A DNA stretch of 64,000 nucleotides, taken from assembly GCF_000378205.1 (NCBI RefSeq), contig NZ_KB899412.1, positions 62,001 to 126,000 on the forward strand, read 5' to 3'. The translations under genes and the position numbers were made by a program. The stretch is from Sediminispirochaeta bajacaliforniensis DSM 16054. Its GTDB lineage: Bacteria > Spirochaetota > Spirochaetia > DSM-16054 > Sediminispirochaetaceae. This document shows, piece by piece, positions 16,252 through 36,644 of this stretch. Below the pieces are notes generated by a model. That model searched no databases. It was not told where the DNA came from and was given only the letters and a program-made list of their open reading frames with translations. Position 1 is the stretch's first letter. Each line of letters begins with the position of its first letter.

Positions 16252-17679
16252 TCAGGTCATATCGGTGCGAAGGTCGTCGTGGACCTTCTGTTCCTTGTAG
16301 GAACGGGGAAGAATGATGTTGAGGAATATGGCGGAAAGTCCGCCGGTGGTGATTGCCGAACCGAAGATGGTTTTTGCCAGGGGAGGAAAATGCCCCAGGG
16401 CATCAGGAACGAGGATCACACCGAGGCCGAGCCCGAAGCTTATGGCCATGATAAGGATCCCCCGGCGGTTGATGACGTTGGTGCCGATCAGCTTGATGCC
16501 GCTGGCTGCAACGGTCCCGAACATGATGATGGTGGCTCCTCCGAGAACAGGGGAGGGAATGAGGCTGAAGATTCCGCCGATGATGGGGAAGGCCCCGAAT
16601 ATGACAAGCAGAGCGGCGATAAAGTAGCCAATGTAGCGACTCGCCACACCGGTAAGCTGGATGATGCCGTTGTTCTGACTGAACGTGGTATTGGGAAAGC
16701 TGTTGAACAGGGCCGCTATCGCGGAGTTCACACCATCGCCGAGGACCCCTCCGCTGATGGTTTTAATGTACTGTTTTCCCTCAATGGGTTGATTTGATAC
16801 CAGACTGGTTGCGGTGAGGTCGCCGATGGACTCCACGGTGGTGATCAGGTAGAGGAGTGCCATGGGGATGAAATAGTCGAAACGGAATTTGAAGAATCCG
16901 TATTTGAAGGGTATCGGCACGTTGATCAGGGATAATCCGTCGAGCTTGGTAAAATCGATACGCCCCATGAAGGCCGCAACGATATAGCCGACGGCAAGGC
17001 CGATGACGATGGCTCCCATGCGGAGCCATTGGTTTTTGCTGCGGTTCAGGATGATGATGGTCACCAGGACGATTGCCGCCAGACCGAGGTTCTGCCAGCT
17101 TCCAAAGGCGTCGGTTCCTACTGCGGCCGATCCCCCTGCGATATCGGTGAACCCGACCTTGACCAGGGAGAGTCCGATCATGGTGACGATGATACCGCTG
17201 ACCAGGGGGGTAATGATTTTCTGGAGGAACTTGAGAAATCGAGAAAAGACCATTTCGATGAAACTGCCGAAGAAGCAGATGCCGAAGATGGTGGCAAGGG
17301 CGGCTTCGTTGCTGCCGCCATCTCCCTTGACCGCCATGCCTATGGCGATGATGGTCCCGAGAAAGGTGAAGCTTGTGCCCTGTATGGAGAGAAGTCCGCT
17401 CCCGACAGGGCCGAACTTCTTGGCCTGGATGAAGGTTGCGATGCCAGAGACGACCAGGGCCATGGAAATGATGTAGCTGGTCATCTGAATGGGCAGCCCC
17501 AAAACACCGCAGATGATGGTCGGCGGGGTAATAATACTGACAAAGATGGCAAGAAGGTGTTGCAGTGCCGCGAAGAGTGATTGCAAAAAGGAAGGACGAT
17601 CGTCTAGACCGTAGATGATCTCTACGGCACTGCCTGCTGCCCCGTTTTGCGGGGGTGTTTGAACGGAGGTATCGCTCAT
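16252..17679 (-). CDS. NCS2-family xanthine/uric acid permease
   Basis: A 475-residue inner-membrane purine symporter of the NCS2 (nucleobase-ascorbate) family, with about fourteen helices. Seen motifs include 'FVSIITPPTIICGVLGLP', 'SIQGTSFTFLGTIIAIGMAV' with the substrate-site Gln, and 'NSFPNTTFSQNNGIIQLTGVASR' of the signature region. The ATG at 17679 follows AAGGAGA at good spacing; the longer open frame upstream runs through the promoter and was not used. It is divergent from xdh, so xanthine or urate is the likely substrate. Its promoter (TTTACA 17826-17831, 16 bases, TATACT 17804-17809, minus strand) has the -10 box bracketed by CAACA direct repeats. Confidence 0.9.
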   Translation of the reverse strand: MSDTSVQTPPQNGAAGSAVEIIYGLDDRPSFLQSLFAALQHLLAIFVSIITPPTIICGVLGLPIQMTSYIISMALVVSGIATFIQAKKFGPVGSGLLSIQGTSFTFLGTIIAIGMAVKGDGGSNEAALATIFGICFFGSFIEMVFSRFLKFLQKIITPLVSGIIVTMIGLSLVKVGFTDIAGGSAAVGTDAFGSWQNLGLAAIVLVTIIILNRSKNQWLRMGAIVIGLAVGYIVAAFMGRIDFTKLDGLSLINVPIPFKYGFFKFRFDYFIPMALLYLITTVESIGDLTATSLVSNQPIEGKQYIKTISGGVLGDGVNSAIAALFNSFPNTTFSQNNGIIQLTGVASRYIGYFIAALLVIFGAFPIIGGIFSLIPSPVLGGATIIMFGTVAASGIKLIGTNVINRRGILIMAISFGLGLGVILVPDALGHFPPLAKTIFGSAITTGGLSAIFLNIILPRSYKEQKVHDDLRTDMT

Positions 17680-17765
17680 GAGGTCTCCTTTTCGGACGCT
17701 CCTTTGGTTTTTTGGTGCGGTATGTTTCGGCCCGGTAAAGGAGCACCGAGCAGTTCCGGGAAATA

Positions 17766-17831
17766 CAACAATCCGCAACGCGAGCGACCAAATATTATGC
17801 AACAGTATACAACACTATATTGAGTTGTAAA
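17766..17831 (-). promoter_or_regulatory. Permease promoter with purine-box direct repeats
   Basis: On the minus strand TTTACA (17826-17831), 16 bases and TATACT (17804-17809) make a promoter. The -10 lies between two CAACA repeats (17800-17804 and 17810-17814, plus-strand reading). A second, weaker pair, CAACA (17766-17770) and CAACG (17776-17780), lies downstream in the leader. Start-to-start spacing is 10 bp in both. Confidence 0.65.
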
Positions 17832-17981: not shown

Positions 17982-20249
17982 ATGCCAGTTTCCGGAACGA
18001 CGGTTTTCAGAAACGATGCCGTTTCCAAGGTGACCGGACGGGCCAAGTATACCGACGATCTGAAATTCTACGGTATGGCCCATGCGGTTGTCGTTTATAC
18101 CGGCTATGTACGAGCCGAGCATCTTCGCGTCGATGTTGATGCGGCGTCGGCCGCACCCGGGGTTCTCGGAGTTTTTACCGCAGCCGATATTCCCGGACAG
18201 ATCTGCTTCGGCCAGATCAACCGCGATTATGCCATGCTTGCCCAGGAGCGCATCCTTTGCGAAGGAGACGTCATTGCCCTGATTGTTGCCGAAACCCGGG
18301 CCGAGGCCCTTGCCGCTGCGTCCTTGGTCAAGGAGCAGGCAGAAGAGCTTCCTCCCGTTACCGATTCCTTTGAGGCTCTCAAGCCCGATGCTCCGATCCT
18401 TCGTCCCGGTTCTGCGGGAAATACCAACCGTATCAACCATGGACGGGTCAGGAAAGGGAATGCGGAGGCTGTTTTGCAGGGGTGTGATCTTGTTCTTGAT
18501 GAGGAGTTTTCCACCCAGTTTATCGAGCACGCCTATATGGAGCCCGAGGCGGGGATTGCCGTGCCTCGTCCCGATGGTGTTATCGAGATATACGGCAGCA
18601 TGCAGCATCCCTATTCAACCAGGCGTTTTGTCTCGGCTATGTTGGGCGAGCCCCTTTCCAACATTGAGGTCTATATGACGCCCATGGGGGGAGGCTTTGG
18701 GGGAAAGGACGATACCGCCGCCATTGTGTGCGCCAGGGCTGCTTTGGCGGCACGGAAACTGAATCGACCGGTGAAACTGACCTATGATCGCAGCTGGTCT
18801 ATGAAAGAGAGTTACAAACGCCATCCCTATTATCTCCATTATCGTGTCGGCTTTGATAAGCGGGGAAAGTTTCGGGGTGCCGATATCGATATGGTAAGCG
18901 ACTCGGGGGCCTATACCAGCGTAACCCCCTGGGTGAACTGGCGCAGCACCGCCCAATGCTGCGGTCCCTACACCGCCGATGCGGTGCGCATGGATATCGT
19001 TGCCGCGACCACCAACAATGTCTTTACCGGAGCCATGCGGGGATTCGGCGCTCCTCAGGTCAACTTTGCCGTTGAGCAGCTTATGGACATGGCCGCGGAA
19101 AAGCTGGGGCTCTCTCCTGTTGAGATTCGCCGCATGAATATGGTCAAGCAGGGGGATGCAACCATAACCGGGCAGGTGCTGGATAACCATACCGTCAGCC
19201 TCGAGGCGGTAATGGATCGACTTCTCGCCGAATCTTCCTACAGGGAAAAGTACCCCTCCTGTTCCCGGGGTAAGGGGGAAGGGGATGAGCTCTACGGTAT
19301 CGGCTTTTCCATCAGCTATCGGGGAGCAAGTCTCGGGGCGGAGGGAATGGATTATTGTTCCTCCATCATCAACTGCCAGATGGACGGATCGATCCTTCTG
19401 GAGGCGGCCATCCATGAAAACGGGCAGGGGGCAGAATCGGTCCAGATGATGATCCTCAGCGAAGAACTTGGGGTTCCCCTTTCGAGGATTCGCTATAAGC
19501 GACCCTCCACCAGCAATATTCCCGATGGCGGGACCACCGTAGCGACCCGTGGGACCATCATGGGAGGCGGCGCCGTGGCTATTGCCGCCCGGAATCTAAA
19601 GAAGCTGATTGCCGAGACCCTTGCCGAAGAGCTGGGCGGCGACCCTTCTGAGGTCGTTTTCGAAAACGATACGGTCAGCGTTCCTCTGGGGAAGAGCTTC
19701 AGCTGGGAAGAGGCCATGAAGGCGATGCATCTTCATCGGGTCTACCCCTACGCTTTCGGCACCTTTCAGGCTCCCCATGTTTCCTGGGACGAAGAGCTTG
19801 GGCAGGGTGATGCCTACTTTACCTTTGTCTACAGCGCCCAGGCTGCCGAGCTGACGGTAAGCCGCAAAACCGGTAAGATAAAGCTCCTTTCTTTAACCGC
19901 GGTCCACGATATCGGTCGGGCGATCAACAGGGCCATGGTTTTAGGGCAAATGTACGGCGGTATCGCTCAGGCGGTGGGGCAGGCCTTGAGCGAGGATCTG
20001 GCGGTGCGGGACGGTCGGATCGGCAATCTCAATCTTGACAAATACAAAATTCCCAGGGCGAAGGATCTGCCCGAGATCAAGGGGATCATTGTGGAGAATC
20101 CCGATCCAACCTCTCCCACGGGTGCTAAGGGAATTGGCGAGCCCGCCCTTGAACTGATGGCCCCGGCCATTGCCAATGCAGTTTACAACGCAACGGGACT
20201 TCGCTTCCACAGCCTTCCCATCACGATAAACCCGGAGGACTTGAAATGA
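17982..20249 (+). CDS. Xanthine dehydrogenase-family molybdenum-binding subunit
   Basis: A 755-residue catalytic subunit of the xanthine oxidase family, which hydroxylates purines at a molybdopterin-Mo centre in the cytoplasm. The domain order is the small alpha/beta-hammerhead (about 1-130: 'KVTGRAKYTDDLKFYGMAHA') followed by the Mo-binding domains. Cofactor motifs are visible: 'MGGGFGGKDD', 'GAMRGFGAPQ', and 'GAKGIGEPALELMAPA' with the catalytic Glu. It overlaps the 2Fe-2S subunit gene by ATGA. No FAD subunit gene is in this operon. The neighbouring selD/yedF/yqeB/yqeC operon suggests a selenium-dependent Mo site, which the protein sequence itself does not show. Transcription starts from the promoter at 17909-17941. 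Confidence 0.92.
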   Translation: MPVSGTTVFRNDAVSKVTGRAKYTDDLKFYGMAHAVVVYTGYVRAEHLRVDVDAASAAPGVLGVFTAADIPGQICFGQINRDYAMLAQERILCEGDVIALIVAETRAEALAAASLVKEQAEELPPVTDSFEALKPDAPILRPGSAGNTNRINHGRVRKGNAEAVLQGCDLVLDEEFSTQFIEHAYMEPEAGIAVPRPDGVIEIYGSMQHPYSTRRFVSAMLGEPLSNIEVYMTPMGGGFGGKDDTAAIVCARAALAARKLNRPVKLTYDRSWSMKESYKRHPYYLHYRVGFDKRGKFRGADIDMVSDSGAYTSVTPWVNWRSTAQCCGPYTADAVRMDIVAATTNNVFTGAMRGFGAPQVNFAVEQLMDMAAEKLGLSPVEIRRMNMVKQGDATITGQVLDNHTVSLEAVMDRLLAESSYREKYPSCSRGKGEGDELYGIGFSISYRGASLGAEGMDYCSSIINCQMDGSILLEAAIHENGQGAESVQMMILSEELGVPLSRIRYKRPSTSNIPDGGTTVATRGTIMGGGAVAIAARNLKKLIAETLAEELGGDPSEVVFENDTVSVPLGKSFSWEEAMKAMHLHRVYPYAFGTFQAPHVSWDEELGQGDAYFTFVYSAQAAELTVSRKTGKIKLLSLTAVHDIGRAINRAMVLGQMYGGIAQAVGQALSEDLAVRDGRIGNLNLDKYKIPRAKDLPEIKGIIVENPDPTSPTGAKGIGEPALELMAPAIANAVYNATGLRFHSLPITINPEDLK

Positions 20250-20737
20250 GCAGCAGTGATGAACGAATAATAACGATCAACGGGGTGGTTCGCAGTGTTG
20301 CCGAGGCCGATCTCGATCTCAGCCTTTTAGAGTATCTTCGGGAACGGCTTGACCTTACCGGAGTCAAAAACGGCTGTGGAGTCGGGGCCTGTGGGGCCTG
20401 TACCGTAGTAATCGACGGCCAGGGAAAACGCAGCTGCCGTACCAAGCTTTCGTCGGTCTTGGGAAAGAATGTAATCACTGTCGAGGGGCTTGAAGGGCCG
20501 GACGGAAGCCTTCATCCGATCCAGCAGTCCTTTATCGACTGCGGTGCAATCCAGTGTGGTTTCTGTACGCCGGGTATGGTGATGAGTGCCTATGCGCTTT
20601 TACTCCGGGAGAAACGGCCGAGCCGGGATAGAATTCGCAAGGCAATGAGCGGAAACCTCTGCCGCTGCACCGGCTACCAGCAGATCATCGATGCGGTGGA
20701 GATGGCCGCAAAACGAATGTACCCGGGAGGGCTGTAG
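20246..20737 (+). CDS. Xanthine dehydrogenase-family 2Fe-2S subunit
   Basis: A 163-residue iron-sulfur subunit that passes electrons from the molybdenum site. The plant-ferredoxin-like cluster Cys residues are C44, C49, C52 and C64 ('CGVGACGACTVVIDG'). The second cluster uses C104, C107, C139 and C141 ('CGFCTPGM' and 'NLCRCTGYQ'). Length is standard for the family. Its start overlaps the catalytic-subunit stop by four bases. It converges with cysK. The electron acceptor is unclear because no FAD subunit follows. Confidence 0.95.
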   Translation: MSSSDERIITINGVVRSVAEADLDLSLLEYLRERLDLTGVKNGCGVGACGACTVVIDGQGKRSCRTKLSSVLGKNVITVEGLEGPDGSLHPIQQSFIDCGAIQCGFCTPGMVMSAYALLLREKRPSRDRIRKAMSGNLCRCTGYQQIIDAVEMAAKRMYPGGL

Positions 20738-24703: not shown

Positions 24704-25987
24704 CTACAACAAAAACTTGATCAAGAAAAGAATACCGACAATATAGGTAACAACAGAAACATCCTTTGCCTTACCGGTAAGGACCTTCAGGACGATGTAG
24801 CCGAGCATTCCGAACATGATACCTTCGGCAATGCTGTAGGTAAGGGGCATCATGATCATCGTCAAGAAGGCGGGGATTGCTTCGGTGTAATCATCGAAAT
24901 CGATATTCTTGATCGGGCTCATCATAAAAAGACCGACAAGAACCAGGGCGGGAGCGGTAGCCGCACCGGGGATCATGAGAAAGAGGGGGCTAAGGAAAAG
25001 AGCGAGGAAGAAGAGTACCGCGGTTGAAACAGCGGTAAGTCCGGTTCTTCCGCCCTCTGCAACACCGGAAGCGCTTTCCACGTACGTGGTAACCGTAGAG
25101 GTTCCGAGAATAGCACCGAAGGCTGTTCCGAAAGCATCTGCAAAGAGGGCACCCTTAACCTTTGGGATATTCCCGTCCTTATCAATCAGGCCTGCCTTGG
25201 TCGATACACCGATGAGGGTTCCTACGGTATCGAACATATCGACAAAAAGGAAGGTAAAAAGAATGACCAACATGTCGAGGCTGAAAATCCTGCTGAAGTC
25301 GAATTTAAAGAAGATGGGTGCCAGGGAGGGGGGAGCCCAGCTGCCTGAAGGTGCGCTGGTAACCCCAAGGGGAAAACCGATAATGGTAGCCGCAACGATA
25401 CCGATGAGGAGAGCCCCTTTTACACGGAAGGCGAGGAGGATACCCATGATCACCAGGCCGATAACGGCCACGAGGGCCTGGGGGCTGGTAAGTTTGCCGA
25501 CCGTTACAAGGGTAGCTTGGTCGGCAACAACGATTCCGGCACCCTGCAGTCCTATGAATGCGATGAACAGGCCGATACCGACGGAGATAGCCCGCTTCAC
25601 GTTCATGGGAATGCAGTTTACGATTGCTTCACGAACATTGAAGATGGTCAGGATGATGAAGATAATACCTTCGAGAAATACCGCTGTCAGGGCAAACTGC
25701 CAGGAGTAGCCCATTCCGAGGACGACGGTAAAAGCGAAGAATGCGTTGAGCCCCATCCCGGGAGCAAGGGCAAAGGGAAGGTTTGCCGCAAAGGCCATGA
25801 TCAGAGTCGCAACTGCCGAACTAATTGCCGTTGCGGTGAAGATGGCTCCCTGATTCATTCCCGTAGCGCTTAGGATCTGGGGGTTGACGATGAGAATGTA
25901 CGCCATGGTCAGAAAGGTGGTCAGACCGGCGATCATCTCTGTCTTGGCTGAAGTATTGTGTGCCTTCAGTTGAAAGAATTTTTCCAT
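24704..25987 (-). CDS. NCS2-family adenine/guanine/hypoxanthine permease
   Basis: A 427-residue inner-membrane purine permease of the AzgA-like branch of NCS2. It shows the branch's typical start 'FFQLKAHNTSAKTEMIAGLTTFLTMAYILIVNPQIL', 'PGMGLNAFFAFTVVLGMGYSWQ', and 'LFVDMFDTVGTLIGVSTKAGL'. These proteins import adenine, guanine or hypoxanthine with H+. The ATG at 25987 follows AGGAG by eight bases. It lies just downstream of the D-aminoacylase-family gene, has its own promoter (26031-26059) and has a purine-box repeat 7 bp upstream of the -35. It likely feeds adenine deaminase and xanthine dehydrogenase. Confidence 0.93.
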   Translation of the reverse strand: MEKFFQLKAHNTSAKTEMIAGLTTFLTMAYILIVNPQILSATGMNQGAIFTATAISSAVATLIMAFAANLPFALAPGMGLNAFFAFTVVLGMGYSWQFALTAVFLEGIIFIILTIFNVREAIVNCIPMNVKRAISVGIGLFIAFIGLQGAGIVVADQATLVTVGKLTSPQALVAVIGLVIMGILLAFRVKGALLIGIVAATIIGFPLGVTSAPSGSWAPPSLAPIFFKFDFSRIFSLDMLVILFTFLFVDMFDTVGTLIGVSTKAGLIDKDGNIPKVKGALFADAFGTAFGAILGTSTVTTYVESASGVAEGGRTGLTAVSTAVLFFLALFLSPLFLMIPGAATAPALVLVGLFMMSPIKNIDFDDYTEAIPAFLTMIMMPLTYSIAEGIMFGMLGYIVLKVLTGKAKDVSVVTYIVGILFLIKFLL

Positions 25988-26030
25988 CTGTACAACTCCT
26001 ATCGTACTTGTGGGTTTTAGTGACATCACG

Positions 26031-26080: not shown

Positions 26081-27706
26081 CATGCATGTTCTGATCAGCC
26101 TTCCCGGCTTTTCTGAACGGTAGTGCCCATCGGCGATTTTGGCCTTCCCGTTGATAAAAAGCCAGTGGATTCCTTCGGATTCCTTCTCTGGGAAAGCTGT
26201 GCTTGAACAGTCCTTGATATTCGAGTCGAAGACCACGATATCCGCCTTCTTATTCGGGGCAATGATGGCCCTGTCTTTGATTCCAAACAGGTCGGCCGCA
26301 GCCTTTGAGCTCTTTCTCACAGCCTCTTCCAAAGAGAGGTGGGAGGTTTCAAATACCTGCCAGCGGAAAAAACGGGGAAATGTGCCGTAGACCCTGGGAT
26401 GAAGCCTTCCTCCCAGAAGGGTGTCGCTGGAAAGCATACCTGCGGGATGGAGGAGAATCTCTTCGACGCGATCTTCCTGGCTGTAGCGATCCATCATCCG
26501 TCCCGCGCCCTCTGTCGCTGCAAGGAGAAGGCCGAGAGCCGCAAGCGGCGAGCTTTGCTCTTCTTCGGCTATGCGGGCGATACTCTTCCCTGTATATCGT
26601 AAGGCTTTTTTCTTTGACACTCCGGGCAGGTCGGTTACCACGATGTTATCCCAGCCTATCAGAAGCGGGAGGTTATCCCATGGGACGCTGGGAGGCGCCG
26701 CTTGTGCTCCACCGTAAAGTGCTTCGAGCCTTTGTATTGTTTCGGCGTCACCTAATCGGCCAATTGCCCCCTCGACGCTGCTTCCTTCGAGGAGGAAGGG
26801 CGGCAAAAGAGAGAGAAGGCTGGTGCTGCCGAAATCATAGGGATAGCTGTCAAAGCTAAGCCCCTTTTGTTCGATGAACCTGAGAACCTGCGGAATCTGC
26901 CGCTGATTTCGTTCTCCTATGGCCTTGAGATGGCTGATATGGAGCCTGCATCCCGCCTCTTCGGCGATGTCGGTGATTTCTCTCAAGGCCTGAAAGAGCT
27001 CATCGCTTTCGCTTCTCATATGAACGGCAAGGAGTCTTCCATATTCGGCACTCTTTTTCGCCACGGCAAGCAGTTCGCTTCGTCCGGCAAAAAGAGCGGG
27101 AACATAGATGAGGCCGAGGCTTGTTCCTATAGCACCGGCATCGAATGCTTCTTCAAGCATGTCAAGCATCTTCGCCTCTTCCTTCGGCGAGAGGGGAGCA
27201 CTTTTGTCGCCTGCTGCAGCGTAGCGGAGGGTCCCGTGGCCCACAAAGGGGAGAACATTACACTCAAGGCCCGCTTTTTCCACTGCGTCGTACCATTGGG
27301 CGGTAGTTTCCCAGCTCCATGAAATATCGGGATTTCCGATGACGAGTGTTTTTCGCCAGGAAGCCTGCCGTTCCTTCGGCATCGGCGCAATACCGAGACC
27401 GCAGACCCCGACGGTTTCGCTTGCGATACCCTGGGTGATTTTGGGGCGAAATCCCTGAGGAAGAAAGGGTGCTGCATCGGTATGGGTATGCGGATCAATG
27501 AAGGCGGGAGCAAGGTAGAGCCCCCTGCAGTCGATCCGTTTTATGCTTTCATCATTACTATGCAGCGTGTTTTCGACGGCGGTGATCGAATCGCCTTCGA
27601 TCTTTACGTCGCCGACAAAGGGAGCCGTCCCCTTTCCATTGATGACGGTCGCACCCGAGAGTAGAAAAATATCATTCTTTGTTGCGTTTTGTTGTGTTAT
27701 AATCAC
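26054..27706 (-). CDS. D-aminoacylase-family amidohydrolase
   Basis: A 550-residue TIM-barrel metal hydrolase of the N-acyl-D-amino-acid deacylase group. Metal and family motifs: 'FIDPHTHTDAAPF', 'GVCGLGIAPM', 'HMRSESDELFQAL', 'CRLHISHLKAIG' and, near the end, 'LHPRVYGTFPRFF'. The usual reaction removes the acyl group from N-acyl-D-amino acids, but members also act on other cyclic or acylated amides; in this purine setting a ring-opening step cannot be excluded. The only reasonable start is the GTG at 27706. It has no Shine-Dalgarno sequence, while TTGTAA-N17-TACGAT ends six bases before it, so a leaderless message is likely. It is divergent from adenine deaminase. Confidence 0.85.
   Translation of the reverse strand: MIITQQNATKNDIFLLSGATVINGKGTAPFVGDVKIEGDSITAVENTLHSNDESIKRIDCRGLYLAPAFIDPHTHTDAAPFLPQGFRPKITQGIASETVGVCGLGIAPMPKERQASWRKTLVIGNPDISWSWETTAQWYDAVEKAGLECNVLPFVGHGTLRYAAAGDKSAPLSPKEEAKMLDMLEEAFDAGAIGTSLGLIYVPALFAGRSELLAVAKKSAEYGRLLAVHMRSESDELFQALREITDIAEEAGCRLHISHLKAIGERNQRQIPQVLRFIEQKGLSFDSYPYDFGSTSLLSLLPPFLLEGSSVEGAIGRLGDAETIQRLEALYGGAQAAPPSVPWDNLPLLIGWDNIVVTDLPGVSKKKALRYTGKSIARIAEEEQSSPLAALGLLLAATEGAGRMMDRYSQEDRVEEILLHPAGMLSSDTLLGGRLHPRVYGTFPRFFRWQVFETSHLSLEEAVRKSSKAAADLFGIKDRAIIAPNKKADIVVFDSNIKDCSSTAFPEKESEGIHWLFINGKAKIADGHYRSEKPGRLIRTCMQQDATLSL
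27680..27703 (+). promoter_or_regulatory. Adenine deaminase -10 box and purine box
   Basis: A perfect TATAAT (27698-27703) is placed to start transcription about 60 bases before the adenine deaminase ATG. TGTTG repeats at 27680-27684 and 27690-27694, 10 bp apart, fill the space where the -35 would be. They also lie in the first codons of the divergent amidohydrolase. Confidence 0.55.
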
Positions 27707-27712
27707 AGGAGT

Positions 27713-27741
27713 ATCGTATACCCAATATATCCGCCTTACAA
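27713..27741 (-). promoter_or_regulatory. Promoter of the D-aminoacylase-family gene
   Basis: On the minus strand TTGTAA (27736-27741), 17 bases and TACGAT (27713-27718). Seven bases past the -10 is the G of the GTG start at 27706. Confidence 0.55.
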
Positions 27742-27769
27742 GACGGATGAACGAAAAAGGAGTAGTGTT

Positions 27770-29500
27770 ATGGATAACTTGAAACAGCGGATAGATATTG
27801 CGGCCGGACGGAAGCAGGCCTCATTGGTTATACGAAACGGCGTCGTGGTCGATCTCTTTGGTCACGGCCTGGTCCATGGCAGTGTGGCCATTGAAGGGGG
27901 AACGATCATCGGCATCGGTGACTATAGGGGCCTTCATGAGATCGATGCCGCCGGCCGTTATATCCTTCCAGGTTTCATCGATAGTCATGTTCATATCGAA
28001 TCGTCCCTTTCCACACCTGCCCAGTTTGCCTCTGCCGTTTTGCCCAGGGGCACCACTACCGTGATTGCCGATCCTCATGAGATCGCCAATGTCTGTGGAC
28101 TTGACGGTATACGGTATATGCTGAAGGCAAGCAGGAATTTGCCGGTTGATATCTATTTTATGCTTCCATCCTGCGTTCCCGCTACCGGATTCGAGCATTC
28201 TGGTGCCGTCTTGGGTGCGGAGGAGTTGGAACGTCTTATCGATGAAGAGCGTGTGCTGGGCCTTGGAGAGCTTATGGATTATCCTTCTCTCATCGCCGGT
28301 TCCGAACCGGTGCTGAAAAAGGTGATGCTTGCCAAAAGCCGCCATAAATTTGTCGATGGTCACAGTCCCATGGTTTCGGGAAATGACCTTACCGCCTATG
28401 CGGTCGCAGGGGTTCGTACCGATCATGAATGCTCTACGGTCCAGGAGATGAACGATCGCTTGAGCCGCGGCATGTATGTTTTGCTGCGTGAGGGCTCTGC
28501 CGCCCGAAATATGGAAGCCCTCATTAAGGGGGTGACCCCTGAGAATAGCCGACGCTGTCTCTTTTGCACCGACGACCGCCAGCCGGAAGATATCCTGGCC
28601 ACGGGCCACATCGACAATCATCTGCGGATAGCGGTCAGAAACGGAATCGATCCCATTACCGCAGTAACGATGGCAAGCCTCAACGCCGCCGAATGTTACC
28701 GGCTCGACGGAAAAGGAGCGGTGGCCCCCGGCTACGATGCGGACCTTGTTTTCGTTGAAGATCTGAAGGATTTTGCGGTATCCACGGTTTTGGTTGGCGG
28801 AAATGTGGTGGCAAAGGATGGACGCTCGCTTTTTGAGCTTCCGAAGGAGATTGATGCCTCTTCTGTTACCGACACGGTCCACGTCAAACCCTTTGGCGTC
28901 GATGCCTTTCGTCTGAAGCTCGACTCCTCGCGTGCCAGAGTCATTCAGGTCGCCGAAGCCTCCCTTATCACAGAAGCGGTGGAGCGGGAGGTCGAACGGG
29001 ATGATGCCGGTTGTTTTCGCCCTCTTCCGGGAGGGAATATCGTAAAATTGGCGGTAATTGAACGCCATAACGCGACGGGCAATATCGGCCTTGCGCTTTT
29101 GGAAAACTACGGAATCAAGGGAGGCGCCGTGGCGTCGACCATAGCCCATGACAGCCATAATATCATCGTTGCAGGGGATAGAGACGAGGATATGTATACG
29201 GCGGTCCGTGAGTTGGTCAGTGTGGGGGGAGGAATCACCATTGTGGCAGGTGGAAACGTCATGGGGACCCTGGAATTACCCATTGCCGGATTGATGAGTG
29301 ATCGAAGTGCAGCCGAAATCGACGCACAACTTAGCCGAATGCTCGATGTGGCCAGGAATACACTTGGTATCAATCCGGGGCTCGATCCATTTATGACCCT
29401 GAGCTTTCTTGCCTTACCGGTGATCCCAAAATTAAAACTGACCGATATGGGGCTTTTTGATGTCGAGCACTTCACCTTTACCGGTAATTCCGTGCCTTGA
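27770..29500 (+). CDS. ade: Adenine deaminase
   Basis: A 576-residue two-domain amidohydrolase that converts adenine to hypoxanthine and ammonia in the cytoplasm. The metal motif 'GFIDSHVHIESSLSTP' and 'GTTTVIADPHEIANVCG' are near the N-terminus. 'VDGHSPMVSGNDLTAYA' and 'FCTDDRQPEDIL' follow, and the ADE-specific C-terminal domain carries 'SHDSHNIIVAGD'-type sequence ('IAHDSHNIIVAGDRDEDM'). Length matches AdeC/YerA proteins. AAAAGGAG lies about seven bases before the ATG at 27770. Its product is the substrate of xanthine dehydrogenase, and the shared purine-box motif suggests joint control. Confidence 0.95.
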   Translation: MDNLKQRIDIAAGRKQASLVIRNGVVVDLFGHGLVHGSVAIEGGTIIGIGDYRGLHEIDAAGRYILPGFIDSHVHIESSLSTPAQFASAVLPRGTTTVIADPHEIANVCGLDGIRYMLKASRNLPVDIYFMLPSCVPATGFEHSGAVLGAEELERLIDEERVLGLGELMDYPSLIAGSEPVLKKVMLAKSRHKFVDGHSPMVSGNDLTAYAVAGVRTDHECSTVQEMNDRLSRGMYVLLREGSAARNMEALIKGVTPENSRRCLFCTDDRQPEDILATGHIDNHLRIAVRNGIDPITAVTMASLNAAECYRLDGKGAVAPGYDADLVFVEDLKDFAVSTVLVGGNVVAKDGRSLFELPKEIDASSVTDTVHVKPFGVDAFRLKLDSSRARVIQVAEASLITEAVEREVERDDAGCFRPLPGGNIVKLAVIERHNATGNIGLALLENYGIKGGAVASTIAHDSHNIIVAGDRDEDMYTAVRELVSVGGGITIVAGGNVMGTLELPIAGLMSDRSAAEIDAQLSRMLDVARNTLGINPGLDPFMTLSFLALPVIPKLKLTDMGLFDVEHFTFTGNSVP

Positions 29501-29508
29501 CCCCATGT

Positions 29509-30279
29509 CTACTCCTGGATGATGACCGGTTTTCCTTCCACCGAACGGACATGGATAGGGACATCGTACAGGCGGGAGAGGTTCCTTCCCGTTAGTATCT
29601 GCTCGGTGGGCCCTGCTTCCAGAAGCAGTCCCTCCTTGAGAAGCACCAGGTGGGTGGCGATGGCCGCGGCCAAGGCGGGGTGGTGGGTGGTAAAGAGGAT
29701 CGTCACTCCTGACTGCGAAAGGGATGCGAGAATGGTCGAAACCCGCCTCTGGTTTGCAAGATCAAGCTTACTGGTCGGTTCGTCGAGGAGCATGATCGAA
29801 GGCTCCTGGCTAAGGGCTCTGGCTATCATTAACAATTGATATTCGCCGCCGGAAAGACTCGTAACAGGCCGCTGTTTCAGCTTTGCGATTCCTGTCTTTT
29901 CAAGGGCATGCTCGGCAATCGCTCTGTCTTTGATACCGGGCATTTCCAGCTGTTCCAGATAGGGGGCTCTACCGAGCAGTGCGTATTCGATTACCGAATA
30001 ACCGAAGGAAATTCGCTCGTCCTGCGGAACGAGACTTATCAATTGTCCCGCTTCTCTTCGGGAATAGGAGCCGATAGGCCTGCCTTGAAGCAGCATTGAA
30101 CCACGGGAAGGCTGCTTCCAGCCGAGACAGAGATCGAGAAGGGTACTCTTTCCCGCACCGTTCGGACCGAGTATTGCGGTAATGCTTCCTTTCTCCACTC
30201 CCATGGAAAGGTCCGAGAGAACGGGCTTTGCTTCCGCGTGATAGCGAAAACCAATATCTCTTGCCTCAAGAATCATCAT
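29509..30279 (-). CDS. ABC transporter ATPase, FecE/BtuD type
   Basis: A 256-residue cytoplasmic ATPase. Walker A is 'LGPNGAGKSTLLDLCLG', the ABC signature is 'VTSLSGGEYQLLMIARAL' and Walker B is 'PSIMLLDEPTSKLDL'; the switch His is in 'ILFTTHHPALAAA'. Among ABC ATPases it belongs with those serving siderophore, heme, cobalamin and molybdate (MolC) importers. The start at 30279 is one base after the permease stop. It is the last gene of the minus-strand operon that begins with yqeC, so its importer is probably tied to selenium/molybdenum enzyme formation. Confidence 0.92.
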   Translation of the reverse strand: MMILEARDIGFRYHAEAKPVLSDLSMGVEKGSITAILGPNGAGKSTLLDLCLGWKQPSRGSMLLQGRPIGSYSRREAGQLISLVPQDERISFGYSVIEYALLGRAPYLEQLEMPGIKDRAIAEHALEKTGIAKLKQRPVTSLSGGEYQLLMIARALSQEPSIMLLDEPTSKLDLANQRRVSTILASLSQSGVTILFTTHHPALAAAIATHLVLLKEGLLLEAGPTEQILTGRNLSRLYDVPIHVRSVEGKPVIIQE

Positions 30280-30280
30280 C

Positions 30281-31249
30281 TCACCGGCCTCGCTTTGTGC
30301 TTTTTTTCGTGAGGAGGATAATGAAAAAACAGGCACCTATGAAGCTGGTGAGCACGCCCAGGGGAATTTCCCCGGCAAGGAGGGTTCTCGCAAGGGTATC
30401 GCAGACGATGGTGAAGCAGGCACCGAGAATCATTGCACCGGGCAGCGACCATCTGGAATTGGCGGAGAAGAGTTTCCGCGCCATATGGGGGACGATCAGA
30501 CCGACCCAGCTGATCATGCCGCTGATGGAGATGACCGCTGCCGTTGCCGCCGTTGCTGCGGCAAGGAGAATAAGCCGTTCGCGTACCGGTGCGATTCCAA
30601 AGGAAAAGGCGGTCCTGTCGTCCATCGAAAGAAGATTGAGGCGCCATCGATGGGCAAAAAGAAGAAGTGCTGCGAGAAGAACCACAGGAAGCACCGAAAG
30701 GACCTCTTTCCAGCCGACGCTCCAGAGCCCACCGAGAAGCCAGAAGGTGATCTCCGGTAGTTGGCTCATGGGGTCGGCGGTGTATTTGAGTATTCCCACT
30801 CCTGCGGAGAAAAGGGCCGAAACCGTTATACCCGCCAGGACAAGACGAAGGGTCCAGCCTCCGAAGCGGAAATGACGTGCGAGAAGATAGCTCGCCCCGA
30901 GGCCGACAAAGGCAAAGCATGCCGCCGATATCTGTATCAGCCAGGCTGCCGTTCCTCCAAGTACGATGGCCGCGGCAGCCCCGAAAGCGGCGCCCTGGCT
31001 CACACCGAGAAATCCCGGTTCCACCAGGGGATTTGAGAAGAGCATCTGAAAAACCGTGCCCCCGGCTCCCAGGGCGAGCCCAAGCAAAAGGGAAGCAATA
31101 AGCCGCGGCAGCCGTAAGGAGAGAAGCAGGTTACGAGCAAGCCGGTCATGAATAAATGTCGAAGGAGCGGTAAAACCGGCGGACGGGTACCTGCCTGCCA
31201 AAAGGGACAATAAACACACTACCCCTAAAGCGCACAGTAGCTTTACCAT
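30281..31249 (-). CDS. FecCD-family ABC transporter permease
   Basis: A 322-residue, about ten-helix inner-membrane permease of the BtuC/FecCD family. Seen family motifs: 'RLPRLIASLLLGLALGAGGTVFQMLFSNPLVEPGFLGVSQGA', 'WLLGGLWSVGWKEV', and 'ISWVGLIVPHMARKL' near the C-terminus where the ATPase docks. The ATG at 31249 is chosen because it opens the first helix and gives the usual family length; a TTG at 31333 would overlap the binding-protein gene. Ligand options are molybdate/tungstate (as for H. influenzae MolB), iron chelates or cobalamin. Confidence 0.9.
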   Translation of the reverse strand: MVKLLCALGVVCLLSLLAGRYPSAGFTAPSTFIHDRLARNLLLSLRLPRLIASLLLGLALGAGGTVFQMLFSNPLVEPGFLGVSQGAAFGAAAAIVLGGTAAWLIQISAACFAFVGLGASYLLARHFRFGGWTLRLVLAGITVSALFSAGVGILKYTADPMSQLPEITFWLLGGLWSVGWKEVLSVLPVVLLAALLLFAHRWRLNLLSMDDRTAFSFGIAPVRERLILLAAATAATAAVISISGMISWVGLIVPHMARKLFSANSRWSLPGAMILGACFTIVCDTLARTLLAGEIPLGVLTSFIGACFFIILLTKKSTKRGR

Positions 31250-31295
31250 GGTCCGTCTGCGCTTTTCCTCTTCGGTATCTGAGTGGAGGTCTCGG

Positions 31296-32387
31296 CTATT
31301 CAGCAATCTCTCCTTCGAGCCTGGGAAGGACAACTTCCTCGATCACCGATTGGTCCAGATGATACAGTTCATTATAAAAGCGGATCACCTCATCGCTTAT
31401 CTTCATGTCCGAAAATTCTTCGGGGTAGAGCGTTTTTGCCATCCAGCCGATACAAAGTATCCAACGGGTATCAGGCTGGGCCCAGCTGTGAAAATCGGAA
31501 GGGACGGCCTGCACCCTGCCGGCCTTTGCCGCCCGCAGTTGCTGCCACGTCGTATCTGCAAGTATTCCGGGAAGGAAATCGCCGCTGTCGCTATTGAAGC
31601 TGGTAATGAAAATGTAGTCAGGATCCCAGGCCGCTATCTGTTCAAAATTGACTGTTTTCCATCCCCCGCCTTTGTTGCTTTCCTTCCAGACTGCCTTAGC
31701 CCCGGCCTTTTCCACCTGAGCAGTCTGTATCCAGCTTGCCGGTGAGATGTTAAAGGCACGCTCTCCTCCCTTGTTGGAGTAATAGAGCAGGAGTACCGAT
31801 GGTTTATTCTGTTCAGGGATCTTCCCGACTTTTTTGTTTATTCTGTCGAGAAAATCGGCATAATAGGCGTTGATCGCTTCTGCCCGTTTTGTGTCTCCAA
31901 AGATACGCCCGACAATCATGATGTCATCGATATACTGGCTTGGCGTTTCAAGAGATAGCGCTATGGTCGGGACCCCTAACTTTGCCACCGGTGCACCAAG
32001 CTTTTCATATACAAAATCTTTTACGATAAAGAGATCCGGTTTGAGGGCGACAACCTGTTCCGGCCCAACCTCATGGCCAATTCTGGTTATCTCCCCGATG
32101 TTGGGATCAAGATAAGGGAAAAAATCGCCCAGCCCTTGATTTGTTTTTCCCAGCCCGATGACCTTTCCCCTTGCCTCGGGAAAGAGAAAGAGGGTATCGG
32201 CGGTTATAAGAGTCGATTTTCCTGCGACGACGATCCGTTCCGGAGAGGCGGGGAGTACAACGTGGTTTCCGATTGAGTCGGTGACGGTGATACCCTGCTG
32301 GGCTTCCTGTGAACCGGAGGCCCAGAGCGAAAAGATTGCCGAAAAGAAAAAAAGAAGGGAACATAATATTTTTTGTTGCGCACTCAT
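31296..32387 (-). CDS. ABC transporter substrate-binding protein (BtuF/FecB/MolA class)
   Basis: A 363-residue extracytoplasmic receptor of the helical-backbone class that serves FecCD importers. The signal sequence 'ILCSLLFFFSAIFSLWAS' is followed by 'GSQEAQQG'; there is no lipobox Cys. The mature start 'ITVTDSIGNHVVLPASPERIVVAG' and 'VVALKPDLFIVKDFVYEKL' are typical of the family, and 'KTVNFEQIAAWDPDYIFITSFN' begins the second lobe. It begins only 21 bp after yedF, inside the selenium/molybdenum maturation operon, which makes molybdate, tungstate or a related oxyanion the leading ligand guess. Iron chelates remain possible. Confidence 0.9.
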   Translation of the reverse strand: MSAQQKILCSLLFFFSAIFSLWASGSQEAQQGITVTDSIGNHVVLPASPERIVVAGKSTLITADTLFLFPEARGKVIGLGKTNQGLGDFFPYLDPNIGEITRIGHEVGPEQVVALKPDLFIVKDFVYEKLGAPVAKLGVPTIALSLETPSQYIDDIMIVGRIFGDTKRAEAINAYYADFLDRINKKVGKIPEQNKPSVLLLYYSNKGGERAFNISPASWIQTAQVEKAGAKAVWKESNKGGGWKTVNFEQIAAWDPDYIFITSFNSDSGDFLPGILADTTWQQLRAAKAGRVQAVPSDFHSWAQPDTRWILCIGWMAKTLYPEEFSDMKISDEVIRFYNELYHLDQSVIEEVVLPRLEGEIAE

Positions 32388-32408
32388 GATATATCTCCTC
32401 TTCCTTGG

Positions 32409-33050
32409 CTATACCGTAACGGTATCCCCTTCAAGAAGGGCAGTGGCGATATCGTACATGTTCGAGACCATACCGACGGCGAGTTTATCCTTCAATCCGT
32501 AATAGTCTAGACAGGTCCCACAGGCGAGAATCTCAATGCCTGCCGCTTCCAGTTTTTTCAGGTCGCCAAGCTCCTTTGCCGATTCTATGGTCAACTTGAC
32601 ACCGCTGTTCATAAAGACAAGCCGTTTGGGCATCTGATCGAGTTCTGTAAGAGCAAAAAGAAAGGCGCTCATGAGCAATCGCCCGAGTTCACGGTCTCCT
32701 TCTCCTACGGTATCTTTGGAAATAAAAACGGTTTTTCCCGCCGTCCCTCCGGATTGAGTCACCGGACAGCTTGCGATGGCTTGGTCGAAGGCCGCCGCCT
32801 CGCTTTCCTGGGAAACCTCGGCGCCTCCTGCTATGGAGATGGTAAAGGCACCCTCCTGTCCCTCTGTGCCGATCACCTTATAGCCGGCATGTTCGGCGTA
32901 ACGCGTAACATTGGTAACCGCTGCGCTATTATCGACAATCACTTCGAGTGTATCGAAATTTCCCTCACCAAGGGCCTTCTTGGTGCGAATAACAGGCTGG
33001 GGGCAGGGGAGCCCTCTGGCGTCTACTACATGCTTTTTCTCTTCAGACAT
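32409..33050 (-). CDS. yedF: YedF-type selenium metabolism protein
   Basis: A 213-residue protein of the sulfurtransferase-like selenium metabolism family. The N-terminal TusA-like domain has 'VDARGLPCPQPVIRTKKAL' with the reactive C16. The C-terminal DsrE-like domain has 'RLVFMNSGVKLTIESA' and the Cys pair in 'ILACGTCLDYYGL'. The family occurs with selD and is thought to carry or deliver selenium. It lies ten bases after selD and 21 bases before the ABC receptor gene, in one operon. Confidence 0.92.
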   Translation of the reverse strand: MSEEKKHVVDARGLPCPQPVIRTKKALGEGNFDTLEVIVDNSAAVTNVTRYAEHAGYKVIGTEGQEGAFTISIAGGAEVSQESEAAAFDQAIASCPVTQSGGTAGKTVFISKDTVGEGDRELGRLLMSAFLFALTELDQMPKRLVFMNSGVKLTIESAKELGDLKKLEAAGIEILACGTCLDYYGLKDKLAVGMVSNMYDIATALLEGDTVTV

Positions 33051-33060
33051 CTTTCCTCCA

Positions 33061-34101
33061 CTATGCTATGGTGATTTTTTCGGAAGGACCTTCGACGCTG
33101 CCTATGAGGGCCGCGGATAGTCCTTTTTCATTCATTGCTTCGACACATCTTTCAGCATCCCGTGGGGAAACGGCTGCCAGAAGTCCTCCCGAGGTTTGCG
33201 GATCAAAAAGAAGGTCGAGGAGAACCGGATCAATCGTTTCCGCATTGGCGATGAAAGGCAATCTGAACTCCTTGTTCCGGTAGGTCCCCTCGGGGACAAG
33301 GCCCATGGATGCATATTCCATGACATCGGGAAGGAGCTTAAGGCTGCCGCTCTTGATCGTAAACCCCCAGGCGGAACCTGAGACCATCTCTGCTGCATGT
33401 CCAAGGAGACCGAAACCCGTCACATCGGTACATGCAGATAGATCGGCGGTTTTCAGAATTTCCATTGCGGAAAGATTGAGGGTCGCCATCTGCCGGGAGG
33501 CGGCCTCTATTGCCTCCTCGCTGGCCAACTCCGCTCTGAGCGCCGTGTTGATCAGCCCCGTTCCGAGGGCCTTTGAAAATATGAGGGCATCCCCCTTTCT
33601 GAGGGTGTTGTTTCTCCATACCTTCTGAGGATCCACCCTGCCGGTAATGGAAAAGCCCAGCTTCAGCTCCGGGTCGTCGACACTGTGCCCTCCGACCAGG
33701 GAGCAGGATGCCTCGGAGAGCGCGGAGATTCCTCCCTCCATCATACTGCGCAGATGTTCGAGGGGAATCTTATCCTTAGGGTAGCAGAGGATGGTGAGCG
33801 CCGTGAGTGGTGTTCCTCCCATGGCAAAAACATCGGAGAGGGCGTTGGCTGCTGCTATCCTCCCGAAGGTGAAGGGATCATCGACGATAGGAGGGAAAAA
33901 GTCGACAGTTTGGACCAATGCCATATGCTCGTCGATTTTATAGACCCCCGCATCTTCCGCAGCGGAAAAATCACTCAGAACCGCCGGATTTTCGGCTTGC
34001 GAAAGGCCGCATAATGCCTTATCAAGCAGCCCCGGCCCTAATTTTGCCCCGCAACCCGAGAAACGGGTGAAACCGGTTAATTTTATTGCTTCATCTTTCA
34101 T
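33061..34101 (-). CDS. selD: Selenide, water dikinase (selenophosphate synthetase)
   Basis: A 346-residue cytoplasmic enzyme that makes selenophosphate from selenide and ATP. The N-terminal active site is 'TRFSGCGAKLGPG' with C17 and K20 (a Cys form, encoded TGC, not selenocysteine). 'DFFPPIVDDPFTFGRIAAANALSDVFAMGG' and 'GGHSVDDPELKLGFSITG' are family motifs. The start overlaps the stop of the xdhC-yqeB fusion gene by ATGA. Selenophosphate could serve selenoproteins, seleno-tRNA or the selenium cofactor of molybdenum hydroxylases; the neighbours point to the last. Confidence 0.96.
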   Translation of the reverse strand: MKDEAIKLTGFTRFSGCGAKLGPGLLDKALCGLSQAENPAVLSDFSAAEDAGVYKIDEHMALVQTVDFFPPIVDDPFTFGRIAAANALSDVFAMGGTPLTALTILCYPKDKIPLEHLRSMMEGGISALSEASCSLVGGHSVDDPELKLGFSITGRVDPQKVWRNNTLRKGDALIFSKALGTGLINTALRAELASEEAIEAASRQMATLNLSAMEILKTADLSACTDVTGFGLLGHAAEMVSGSAWGFTIKSGSLKLLPDVMEYASMGLVPEGTYRNKEFRLPFIANAETIDPVLLDLLFDPQTSGGLLAAVSPRDAERCVEAMNEKGLSAALIGSVEGPSEKITIA

Positions 34102-35708
34102 ACTATTTTTTTCCTCCGTGCCAAAAGCATCAAGATTGCCTCAAGGACCCCGCCGGCTACGGCACGGGCCTTGTCACTTACGGTGGTGAAGTCAGCTTTT
34201 TCTCCCCGGGGATCAACATCCCCGATTTTAAAGTCTTTGGTAACCTCGCTTCCTCCCTTGATTAGGCCCCTGACCATGCCATCGATGGGAGCCGTAACGA
34301 TATCCTTCTGCCCATCTTTCCCTCTGATGGCCATGACAGGATCTCCGCTACGTACAATATCGCCAAGGGCGCAAAGTTCTTCAATGATACCGGCTACCGG
34401 GGCTCTGATGACACGCTTTGCAGAAACCCCCGAGATGTTTCCCGGAACATTGGTATTGGCCTGTGCCGAGCCGTGGAGGATGACTTTTCCGAGGTGATGT
34501 CCCCGATTGGTCTCTATTACCGCATCAACGTCGTCACCTGCGGAAAAGCCGGGCCCCAGACCGATGACCGCAGGAGCCATCTTCTTATGTGTTCCGAGAT
34601 TCTTTTTTGCAAGAATGGCGTCGACAACGGCAGCCGGACGGAGCGCCTGAATAAGTGATCCTTCCGGGTCGGCAATGATGGGGATCTTACCTTCGGTAAG
34701 CACCGCCTCAATTTCTTCAAAGCTTTCGACACGACAGGCGATGATTCCTTCCACCACCATGGTTCCGTCGAACATCGCTTGAGCGAAGGCGACGCTACGT
34801 CGTATCACCGTCGGATGCTTAATCTCGAGTACGACGACCTCGAAGCCCGATCTGAAAAGCCGACAAATGGTGCCGGTGGCGATATCGCCTCCTCCCCTGA
34901 CCACCACACGCCTTGGGTGGTCTCCCGAAAGAGGCACTCCCGTATGCCCGCTTCGAACGGCAAGCAGTTCCGCCGCTATCGATATTGCAATCTCCTGTGG
35001 TGTTTCCGCTCCGATATCCAAACCGATGGGGGCCCTTACCCCGGCAAGTTGTGCCTGAGGCACGCCTTCGTCGGCCAATTTATCCATGAGCAGACGAACC
35101 TTTCGACGGCTGCCGAGCATACCAAGATAGATAAACGATTTACCAACAAAATAACGGAGAGCCCGCTCATCGCTGCTGTTGGTCGCAATGATAATAAAAG
35201 AGGAGGGATCAGAGGGTAGTGAAGCCATTGCCTCTTCGAGATCGTTTCCGAGATACAGCTTTGCTGCCATGGGAAATCGCTCAGCGGAACAGAATTCGGC
35301 TCGCTCCTCCACCACCTCGACACGAAAGCCAAGTTTCGCCGCTACCTTTGCAATCTCAAGACTTACGTGTCCCCCTCCTACAAGAACGAGCCTGGAACCC
35401 GGATTGACACATTCTATAAAAACCTTTAAGGACCCGCCACATTCCATGCTTATGCTTTCGACCTTGTCACCCCGGTCGAGGTCATATTCAAGAAGCTTGG
35501 ATCGATCGAAGCGGATACATTGCAAAGCCTCCTCAATCACTATCCCCTCTACAGGGCCTCCTCCAATTGTTCCGAAACTCCTGCCATTGCTTAGGACAAT
35601 CATTTTCGCTTTGCTTCGGGGGGTAGAGCCTGATGATGATACGATAGTGGCAACGGCAAAGGGAGTGTGCTCTGCCGACAGCTGTGCGGCTTTTTCAAAA
35701 AGGTTCAT
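34098..35708 (-). CDS. XdhC/CoxI-YqeB fusion: selenium-dependent molybdenum hydroxylase maturation factor
   Basis: A 536-residue two-part protein. Residues about 1-250 are an XdhC/CoxI-type Mo-cofactor chaperone: 'FAVATIVSSSGSTPRSKAKMIV', 'GTIGGGPVEGIVIEEAL', then a Rossmann segment 'RLVLVGGGHVSLEIAKVAAKLGF'. Residues about 270-536 match the YqeB/EF2563 family ('VVVRGGGDIATGTICRLFRSGF', 'VIGLGPGFSAGDDVDAVIETNRGH', 'KDIVTAPIDGMVRGLI'), which is a marker for selenium-dependent molybdenum hydroxylases. In many bacteria these are separate genes. The ATG at 35708 has AGGAG eight bases upstream. It likely loads the Mo site of the xanthine dehydrogenase with sulfide or selenide. Confidence 0.9.
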   Translation of the reverse strand: MNLFEKAAQLSAEHTPFAVATIVSSSGSTPRSKAKMIVLSNGRSFGTIGGGPVEGIVIEEALQCIRFDRSKLLEYDLDRGDKVESISMECGGSLKVFIECVNPGSRLVLVGGGHVSLEIAKVAAKLGFRVEVVEERAEFCSAERFPMAAKLYLGNDLEEAMASLPSDPSSFIIIATNSSDERALRYFVGKSFIYLGMLGSRRKVRLLMDKLADEGVPQAQLAGVRAPIGLDIGAETPQEIAISIAAELLAVRSGHTGVPLSGDHPRRVVVRGGGDIATGTICRLFRSGFEVVVLEIKHPTVIRRSVAFAQAMFDGTMVVEGIIACRVESFEEIEAVLTEGKIPIIADPEGSLIQALRPAAVVDAILAKKNLGTHKKMAPAVIGLGPGFSAGDDVDAVIETNRGHHLGKVILHGSAQANTNVPGNISGVSAKRVIRAPVAGIIEELCALGDIVRSGDPVMAIRGKDGQKDIVTAPIDGMVRGLIKGGSEVTKDFKIGDVDPRGEKADFTTVSDKARAVAGGVLEAILMLLARRKKIV

Positions 35709-35754
35709 GGGACAGCTCCTGAACAGCATTGTTTTCACGCATTAGCGTTGTAGC

Positions 35755-35786
35755 ATACCATTGTTTTGATTATGATCCAATGGTAT
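35755..35786. promoter_or_regulatory. Inverted repeat between yqeC and the xdhC-yqeB gene
   Basis: ATACCATTG (35755-35763) and CAATGGTAT (35778-35786) form a perfect 9-bp inverted repeat with a 14-base loop in the 90-bp gap between the two genes. There is no T-run, so an operator or an mRNA hairpin is more likely than a terminator. Confidence 0.45.
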
Positions 35787-35798
35787 TCCATCATTTTT

Positions 35799-36575
35799 TT
35801 AAACGGCCATTATCTGTGCCTTTACGTCCTTCGCCATCATTGACCCGAAGAGCATCTCGATCCCTTTTTCTCCCCCTTCGGAGTGCAGGAAAAGCCTTTC
35901 AAGGCTCTCTTTAAGATTGGCAGCACGATCTTTATTCAGCATATCCAGCTTGTTAAAAAGGAGAAAGCGCCGTGCATTGGAAGGGGCCGATTTAAAAGCG
36001 CCTTCGGGATGGGTGGCAAGACGATAGTAGTGTTCCGCCGTAACCGGGCATTCCGGGCGGCAGCCCGTAAGAGATGCGAAACGTTCCGGACGGTGAACAT
36101 GGTTTTCATCCATGGGGGCCTCATAACTGTCGAGCCCAATTACGGCAATGAGGTGGGTGGTGCACTTCGGTATCTGAGGCTCCTGGGATCCCGGAGCCTT
36201 AAGCGGACGCCGCTTTGCCCCATCAGCCTCTACAATGATCAGATCGTAATCCCGGCGAAGTTCACAGATACGGTCCCTTTCATAGCCCTTGACCTTCTTG
36301 ATTTCCGGAAGTTCCGCCTCGGCTGCAAAGGTTATGGATCCATCCCCGGAAGAGGGTGGGACAACCGTTTCCCCTATGAAACAGCGATGAAAACGAGCGG
36401 TAGGGTCTATACGCGGATCGAACATCTTGGTTGTGGTAGTGATCAGCACATTCTTTCCCCGACGTGCTGCAGATTCGGCAAGGTGATAGAGGGTCGTACT
36501 CTTTCCTCCTCCTCCGGTGAGGGCGATGATCGGAGGATGGAGAGGGGAAGCTTGTTCTGTCTTGTCGAACAACAT
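35799..36575 (-). CDS. yqeC: YqeC: putative selenium cofactor biosynthesis protein
   Basis: A 258-residue P-loop protein of the YqeC family found with selenium-dependent molybdenum hydroxylases. The nucleotide site 'IALTGGGGKSTTLYHLAESAARRG' (about residues 17-40) is followed by 'VLITTTTKMFDP', 'DLIIVEADGAKRRPLKAPGSQEPQIP' and 'LFNKLDMLN', a G-protein-like base-recognition segment. Its exact reaction is not known. The start at 36575 has GGAG nine bases before it and matches the usual family beginning; the ATG at 36590 would add five residues. TATGAT (36600-36605, minus strand) is a possible -10. It heads the operon. Confidence 0.88.
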   Translation of the reverse strand: MLFDKTEQASPLHPPIIALTGGGGKSTTLYHLAESAARRGKNVLITTTTKMFDPRIDPTARFHRCFIGETVVPPSSGDGSITFAAEAELPEIKKVKGYERDRICELRRDYDLIIVEADGAKRRPLKAPGSQEPQIPKCTTHLIAVIGLDSYEAPMDENHVHRPERFASLTGCRPECPVTAEHYYRLATHPEGAFKSAPSNARRFLLFNKLDMLNKDRAANLKESLERLFLHSEGGEKGIEMLFGSMMAKDVKAQIMAV

Positions 36576-36644
36576 GGTAAAGAGCTCCATAGCGAGATGA
36601 TCATAACAGATTTTATGCTGCTGTGCTAATCATCCGCTTAGCTA

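Follow-up and report, generated by a model that had tools for sequence, protein, structure and literature searches.

Which ligand is carried by an ABC importer whose genes continue a run for the maturation of selenium-dependent molybdenum hydroxylases (SDMH)? The question arises from the window, a stretch of 64,000 nucleotides from the 4.57-Mb genome of the spirochaete Sediminispirochaeta bajacaliforniensis DSM 16054 (panel label G000), in which seven genes on the minus strand at 29509-36590 encode YqeC, an XdhC-YqeB fusion, SelD, YedF, and the binding protein, permease and ATPase of the importer (Table 1). YqeC, YqeB, SelD and YedF were identified by curated NCBIfam cut-offs, and XdhC and the importer components by Pfam. 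Neighbouring genes overlap or almost abut: the ATG of selD overlaps the stop codon of xdhC-yqeB, the permease open reading frame starts within the binding-protein gene (a later start is possible), and an internal ATG of the ATPase gene overlaps the permease stop. The gene order, the shared strand, the short gaps and overlaps, and the 21-bp gap after yedF, all reported in a sequence-only reading of this DNA, are borne out by the coordinates and the profile matches. This layout fits a single operon, and the seven genes may be expressed as one transcript; promoter-like and terminator-like matches are scarcely above those of shuffled sequence. Between window positions 15000-40000 no Rfam element was recognized (E up to 1), nor was any in nine loci with orthologs when the gathering thresholds were applied, and riboswitch control was rejected on that ground.

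Table 1. Genes of the importer run and of its surroundings, with positions in the window
Feature	Position	Strand	Identification and remarks
Xanthine/uracil-type permease	16252-17802		Named from sequence
XDH-type molybdenum hydroxylase, large subunit (candidate client)	17982..20249	+	Best NCBIfam matches XDH subunits; also matches TIGR03311 (Se-dependent XDH); all NCBIfam matches below cut-off
2Fe-2S subunit of the same hydroxylase	20246..20737	+	ORF with 2Fe-2S motif, read directly; overlaps large-subunit stop
Purine permease, AzgA-like (wider conserved block)	24704..26029	-	PF00860
Adenine deaminase, ade (convergent neighbour; wider conserved block)	27689..29500	+	TIGR01178, over cut-off
Importer ATPase	29509..30336	-	PF00005, E 4.1e-32
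FecCD permease	30281..31333	-	PF01032, E 1.8e-75
Importer binding protein, TroA-like, Peripla_BP_2	31296..32387	-	PF01497, E 1.9e-23
Spacer between yedF and binding-protein gene, 21 bp	32388..32408	-	Ribosome-site-like AGGAGA, read from sequence
yedF, sulfurtransferase-like selenium protein	32409..33050	-	TIGR03527, E 1.2e-63, over cut-off
selD, selenophosphate synthase	33061..34101	-	TIGR00476, E 2e-108, over cut-off
xdhC-yqeB fusion, XDH/Moco maturation chaperone and SDMH maturase	34098..35738	-	Residues 22-258: PF13478 (XdhC_C, 1.4e-36) and PF02625 (Pfam); residues 278-538: TIGR03309, E 1.1e-106 (NCBIfam)
yqeC, selenium cofactor biosynthesis protein (leads the run)	35799..36590	-	TIGR03172, E 1.5e-49, over cut-off; PF19842

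The first four genes of the run belong to a known set. In the available text of Haft and Self 2008 (PMC2276186), the maturation genes of SDMH are yqeB, yqeC, selD, mocA/ygfJ and TIGR03527/yedF, of which yqeC, yqeB, selD and yedF are adjacent in the window with matches over the NCBIfam cut-offs. Unlike the set described in that text, xdhC and yqeB are fused in the window, and an ABC importer, which that text does not mention, continues the putative operon. The genome contains yqeB, yqeC and selD together with molybdenum hydroxylases that could be their clients (eight PF02738 matches), and the run is flanked by purine genes: those of the XDH-type hydroxylase, the xanthine/uracil-type permease, AzgA and adenine deaminase.

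Comparison with other genomes separates the importer from the selenium genes. Counting the window genome, 23 of 60 relatives have an ortholog of the binding protein, at 33-97% identity, and the importer is conserved as a unit, with an ATPase ortholog adjoining the permease gene in loci uncut by a contig end. The full selenium cassette accompanies it in four genomes only, namely the window genome, G296, G301 and G316. G296, of the same genus, keeps the complete gene order, with importer proteins at 97-98% identity, and the complete order is also found at loci L071 and L075, in two genomes of another family; the arrangement is therefore not due to chance. Both L071 (8050-9222 region) and L075 have an aminotransferase-class-V gene (cysteine desulfurase/selenocysteine lyase-like) between yqeB and selD that is absent from the window. 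The sequence-only reading proposed looking for the same importer beside yqeB elsewhere, and it is there in G296, G301 and G316, but not in most of the 23 genomes with orthologs. In G297 and G298, of the window's own family, the importer occupies the same place, between proBA and ade/azgA, without yqe genes, selD or yedF, and in G313, G224 and G256 the importer and the yqe/selenium genes are both present at separate loci. In G313 a DUF134 regulator-like gene (L082:10341-10820) immediately precedes the importer genes. YqeB occurs in 7 of the 23 importer genomes, the presence of the importer is independent of yqeB among XDH-bearing genomes (p 0.68), and of 94 importer loci only 5 have selenium genes within 5 kb. 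The recurrent partners across these loci are a P-loop NTPase_1 gene (PF03266; 40 loci, for example L149:12803-13327), a PadR-like regulator (33) and a DUF364 protein (9).

Since most orthologs, even in the same family, have no yqe gene or selD nearby, and since the importer is independent of yqeB, the selenium context alone cannot assign the ligand; the claim that an SDMH operon would do so is not borne out. The most economical explanation is an older importer locus that either gained the selenium cassette as a neighbour by insertion or once had it there and lost it. Uptake of a selenium compound, to serve SelD and the SDMH cofactor, is very unlikely, although in four genomes the importer genes share a strand and a run with selD, yedF and the yqe genes and, according to a 2022 review (PMC9312934), no high-affinity selenium transport system has been identified: the rarity of selenium genes near the importer, the 16 of 23 importer genomes that lack yqeB, and the cassette-free loci of G297 and G298 all count against it. 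Selenium was rejected as the leading ligand, the importer being found mostly without selenium genes.

The association with molybdenum hydroxylases is far more consistent. At E<1e-60, a threshold chosen after the scores were seen, XDH-type PF02738 matches are present in 23 of 23 importer genomes versus 9 of 37 importer-less relatives (Fisher p 1.7e-9), and the importer is absent from all 28 panel genomes that have no such strong match. Counted by family, the association is 12 of 12 versus 6 of 21 (p 5e-5). When any PF02738 match is accepted (E<=0.001, 51 of 60 genomes), the contrast between genomes is weaker, with a hand-calculated p of about 0.01. An ortholog-alignment scan of genome contigs found 80 loci in Spirochaetes, Anaerolineae, other Chloroflexi and single Fraserbacteria and proteobacterial MAG records. 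Outside the panel, 49 of 50 importer genomes, mostly Chloroflexi MAGs, have PF02738 at E<1e-50, a proportion counted among importer-bearing genomes alone; the sole exception is a proteobacterial MAG in which the contig with the importer is 3.9 kb long.

Gene neighbourhoods agree. An xdhC, XDH, mocA or ModE-like gene lies within 5 kb in 21 of the 94 importer loci, 18 of them without any selenium gene, compared with none of 40 arbitrary 10-kb windows from seven importer-bearing spirochaete genomes (p 4e-4). The clearest case is L070, in which a ModE-like gene (TIGR00637, 1e-11) and a MocA gene (TIGR03310, 1.8e-46) are followed by those of the binding protein, permease and ATPase. That the importer is tied to molybdenum rather than to selenium is well supported. 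Import of purines or related XDH substrates could also be imagined, adenine deaminase being encoded within 5 kb in 11 of the 94 loci and azgA in 6 (adjoining ade in L068, L069, L071 and L075), but such neighbours are limited to Spirochaetes loci, and the importer of L070, with its adjoining ModE-like gene, has no purine gene next to it. We know of no FecCD-type purine importer, and consider this reading extremely improbable.

The FecCD and Peripla_BP_2 families consist mostly of importers for iron, heme and B12, and a ferric siderophore, heme, B12 or another metal chelate might be the ligand here as well, with the placement among molybdenum and selenium genes a matter of chance. Phylogenetic analysis of the permease, with a small sampling that took in four E. 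coli iron permeases, BtuC, two heme permeases, MolB and the genome's own paralogs, points elsewhere. The ortholog permeases of Spirochaetes and Chloroflexi form a clade of their own (support 100/100), which joins MolB, a MoeA-linked paralog (L006) and a separate lineage of permeases from four f12 genomes in a group (99/97) that excludes BtuC, HmuU, BhuU, FepD, FepG, FecC and FecD; the window permease family is not nested inside the MolB group. MolB is also the closest solved relative of the permease (2nq2, E 1.7e-52). The permease stands apart from BtuC, and no cobU or cobS is found near the 94 loci, both of which argue against a BtuFCD system. The absence from these loci of cobU and cobS, and from the largest clusters of neighbours of any recognizable heme or cobalamin gene, also speaks to the proviso of the sequence-only reading that conservation beside heme or cobalamin genes would overturn its proposal: within that scope, no such conservation appeared. 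Uptake of a metal chelate would, moreover, leave the confinement of the importer to XDH genomes unexplained, and is on the whole unlikely.

Several further importers touch on the same genes. Permeases of the f12 lineage are encoded between yqeC and selD in L090, L097 and L098 and beside yqeC in L100; the f12 run of L090 (12444-16241) is headed by a ModE-like gene (TIGR00637, 4e-19), and the f12 importer units that were read out contain a methyltransferase-like gene. An importer near yqe genes in L093 was set aside, its permease grouping with those of the Fep/Fec type from E. coli. The window genome has a second FecCD importer (G000:C1, about 45.7-49.8 kb; L203:5663-9812), with a MoeA-like gene between those of the receptor and the permease, and this permease groups with MolB.

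The binding protein is less informative. Its AlphaFold2 model (mean pLDDT 89.8) matches MolA (3psa) with Z 30.3 and rmsd 2.6 over 301 residues, but this match is tied with those to YiuA, an iron binder, 4hn9, 4ovk and H. pylori CeuE, a nickel binder; the iron and nickel receptors would suit a metal chelate, and the fold was discarded as evidence of the ligand. The receptor is 20-22% identical to MolA, and a ligand shared with MolA cannot be read from its sequence because a near-invariant W-x-Q-P-D-x-R-W segment of the receptor family is absent from MolA.

MolBCA (HI1471/HI1470/HI1472) is the molybdate/tungstate importer of Haemophilus influenzae (PMC4031551; PDB 2nq2, 3psa). Like it, the importer of the window combines a FecCD-type permease, a TroA-like receptor and an ATPase in one unit, with a permease that is closer to MolB than to the other types and a receptor of similar fold; unlike it, the importer belongs to a separate clade, is often accompanied by an NTPase_1 gene and is tied to XDH-type enzymes. 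It is best read as a new clade within an established type of importer, and its association with these enzymes is well supported. Its proposed substrate would be that of ModABC, an importer of unrelated type. A literature search in which subscription journals were thinly covered found no FecCD importer tied to yqeB or XDH.

Taken together, the comparative evidence makes it probable that the importer is a MolBCA-like system supplying molybdate or tungstate to molybdenum hydroxylases, and that the selenium genes joined it locally. Of the ligands suggested by the sequence-only reading, molybdate and tungstate gain support from the co-occurrence with XDH, from the MocA, XdhC, XDH and ModE-like neighbours and from the grouping with MolB, but the selenium compound does not. 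We infer the ligand, the direction of transport and the co-transcription with the selenium genes. On this view the three importer genes would specify a MolBCA-like type II ABC importer, whose binding protein would capture molybdate and/or tungstate outside the cytoplasmic membrane and whose permease dimer would move the oxyanion inward, driven by ATP. The imported metal would enter the molybdenum cofactor pathway of the cell, and XdhC, YqeB and YqeC, together with selenophosphate from SelD, may then finish selenium-dependent molybdenum hydroxylases for purine breakdown.

Other routes for molybdate differ among the importer genomes. The window genome has two ModABC-like loci besides the importer; the second (G000:C1, about 195-200 kb; L204:5006-10181) is followed by a lone Peripla_BP_2 receptor gene and a radical-SAM-like gene. 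No ModA passes the cut-off in 18 of the 23 genomes with the importer, yet among XDH-bearing genomes the difference falls short of significance (p 0.23), and simple replacement of ModABC was rejected for this reason. Eight importer genomes that have XDH and moaC are without ModA over the cut-off and therefore need another route for molybdate.

Cofactor synthesis raises a different alternative, that the importer takes up pre-made molybdenum cofactor or a pterin precursor in species unable to make the cofactor. Eleven of the 23 importer genomes, from seven families (G224, G316, G301, G297, G302, G309, G315, G323, G326, G328 and G333), have several XDH-type genes but no strong moaA match, no moaC and no moeA, and a pure molybdate route leaves them unexplained. 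Incomplete assembly is an unlikely chance cause in all eleven: G316 and G224 reach 97-99% completeness, and the purine-oxidation clusters of G316 and G301 are intact. Three genomes with no importer ortholog (G019, G226 and G227) have XDH-type genes and likewise no strong moaA match and no moaC or moeA. The lack of moaC in 16 of the 50 importer genomes outside the panel, and the NTPase_1 gene within 5 kb in so many loci, would also suit import of the cofactor. Against it, moaC is present in 12 of the 23 importer genomes in the panel and in 34 of the 50 outside it, genomes without moaC show no excess of the importer once XDH is given (p 0.69), and the same literature search gave no bacterial importer of the cofactor. 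Cofactor synthesis already looks unusual in this group, as in the window genome, where an operon encodes MoeA, MoaA, MoaC and a MOSC/Mog fusion (G000:C8, about 82.3-85.8 kb; L187:6300-9796), MoaA is matched over profile positions 1-198 only and MoaE is not recognizable, so that routes escaping detection are possible; MoaE is for its part uninformative as a marker of the imported species, even the window genome having no recognizable copy. The genomes without moaC and moeA, given so unusual a pathway, must therefore either use an unrecognized route of synthesis or obtain the cofactor from outside. Uptake of the cofactor or a precursor by this importer is quite unlikely, and it is more doubtful still that XDH-rich spirochaetes and Chloroflexi can do without moaA, moaC and moeA by means of such a scavenging system, in which NTPase_1 would act on the cofactor after its import.

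With molybdate or tungstate as the probable ligand, several comparative lines give an otherwise anonymous family of FecCD-type importers a testable class of ligand, and they correct the idea that the selenium operon was the informative part of the context. The comparison has also brought to light genomes in which several molybdenum hydroxylases are encoded although cofactor synthesis is not recognizable, a puzzle that the importer opens to direct testing. In many spirochaetes that have no ModABC, molybdenum may enter chiefly through type II molybdate importers.
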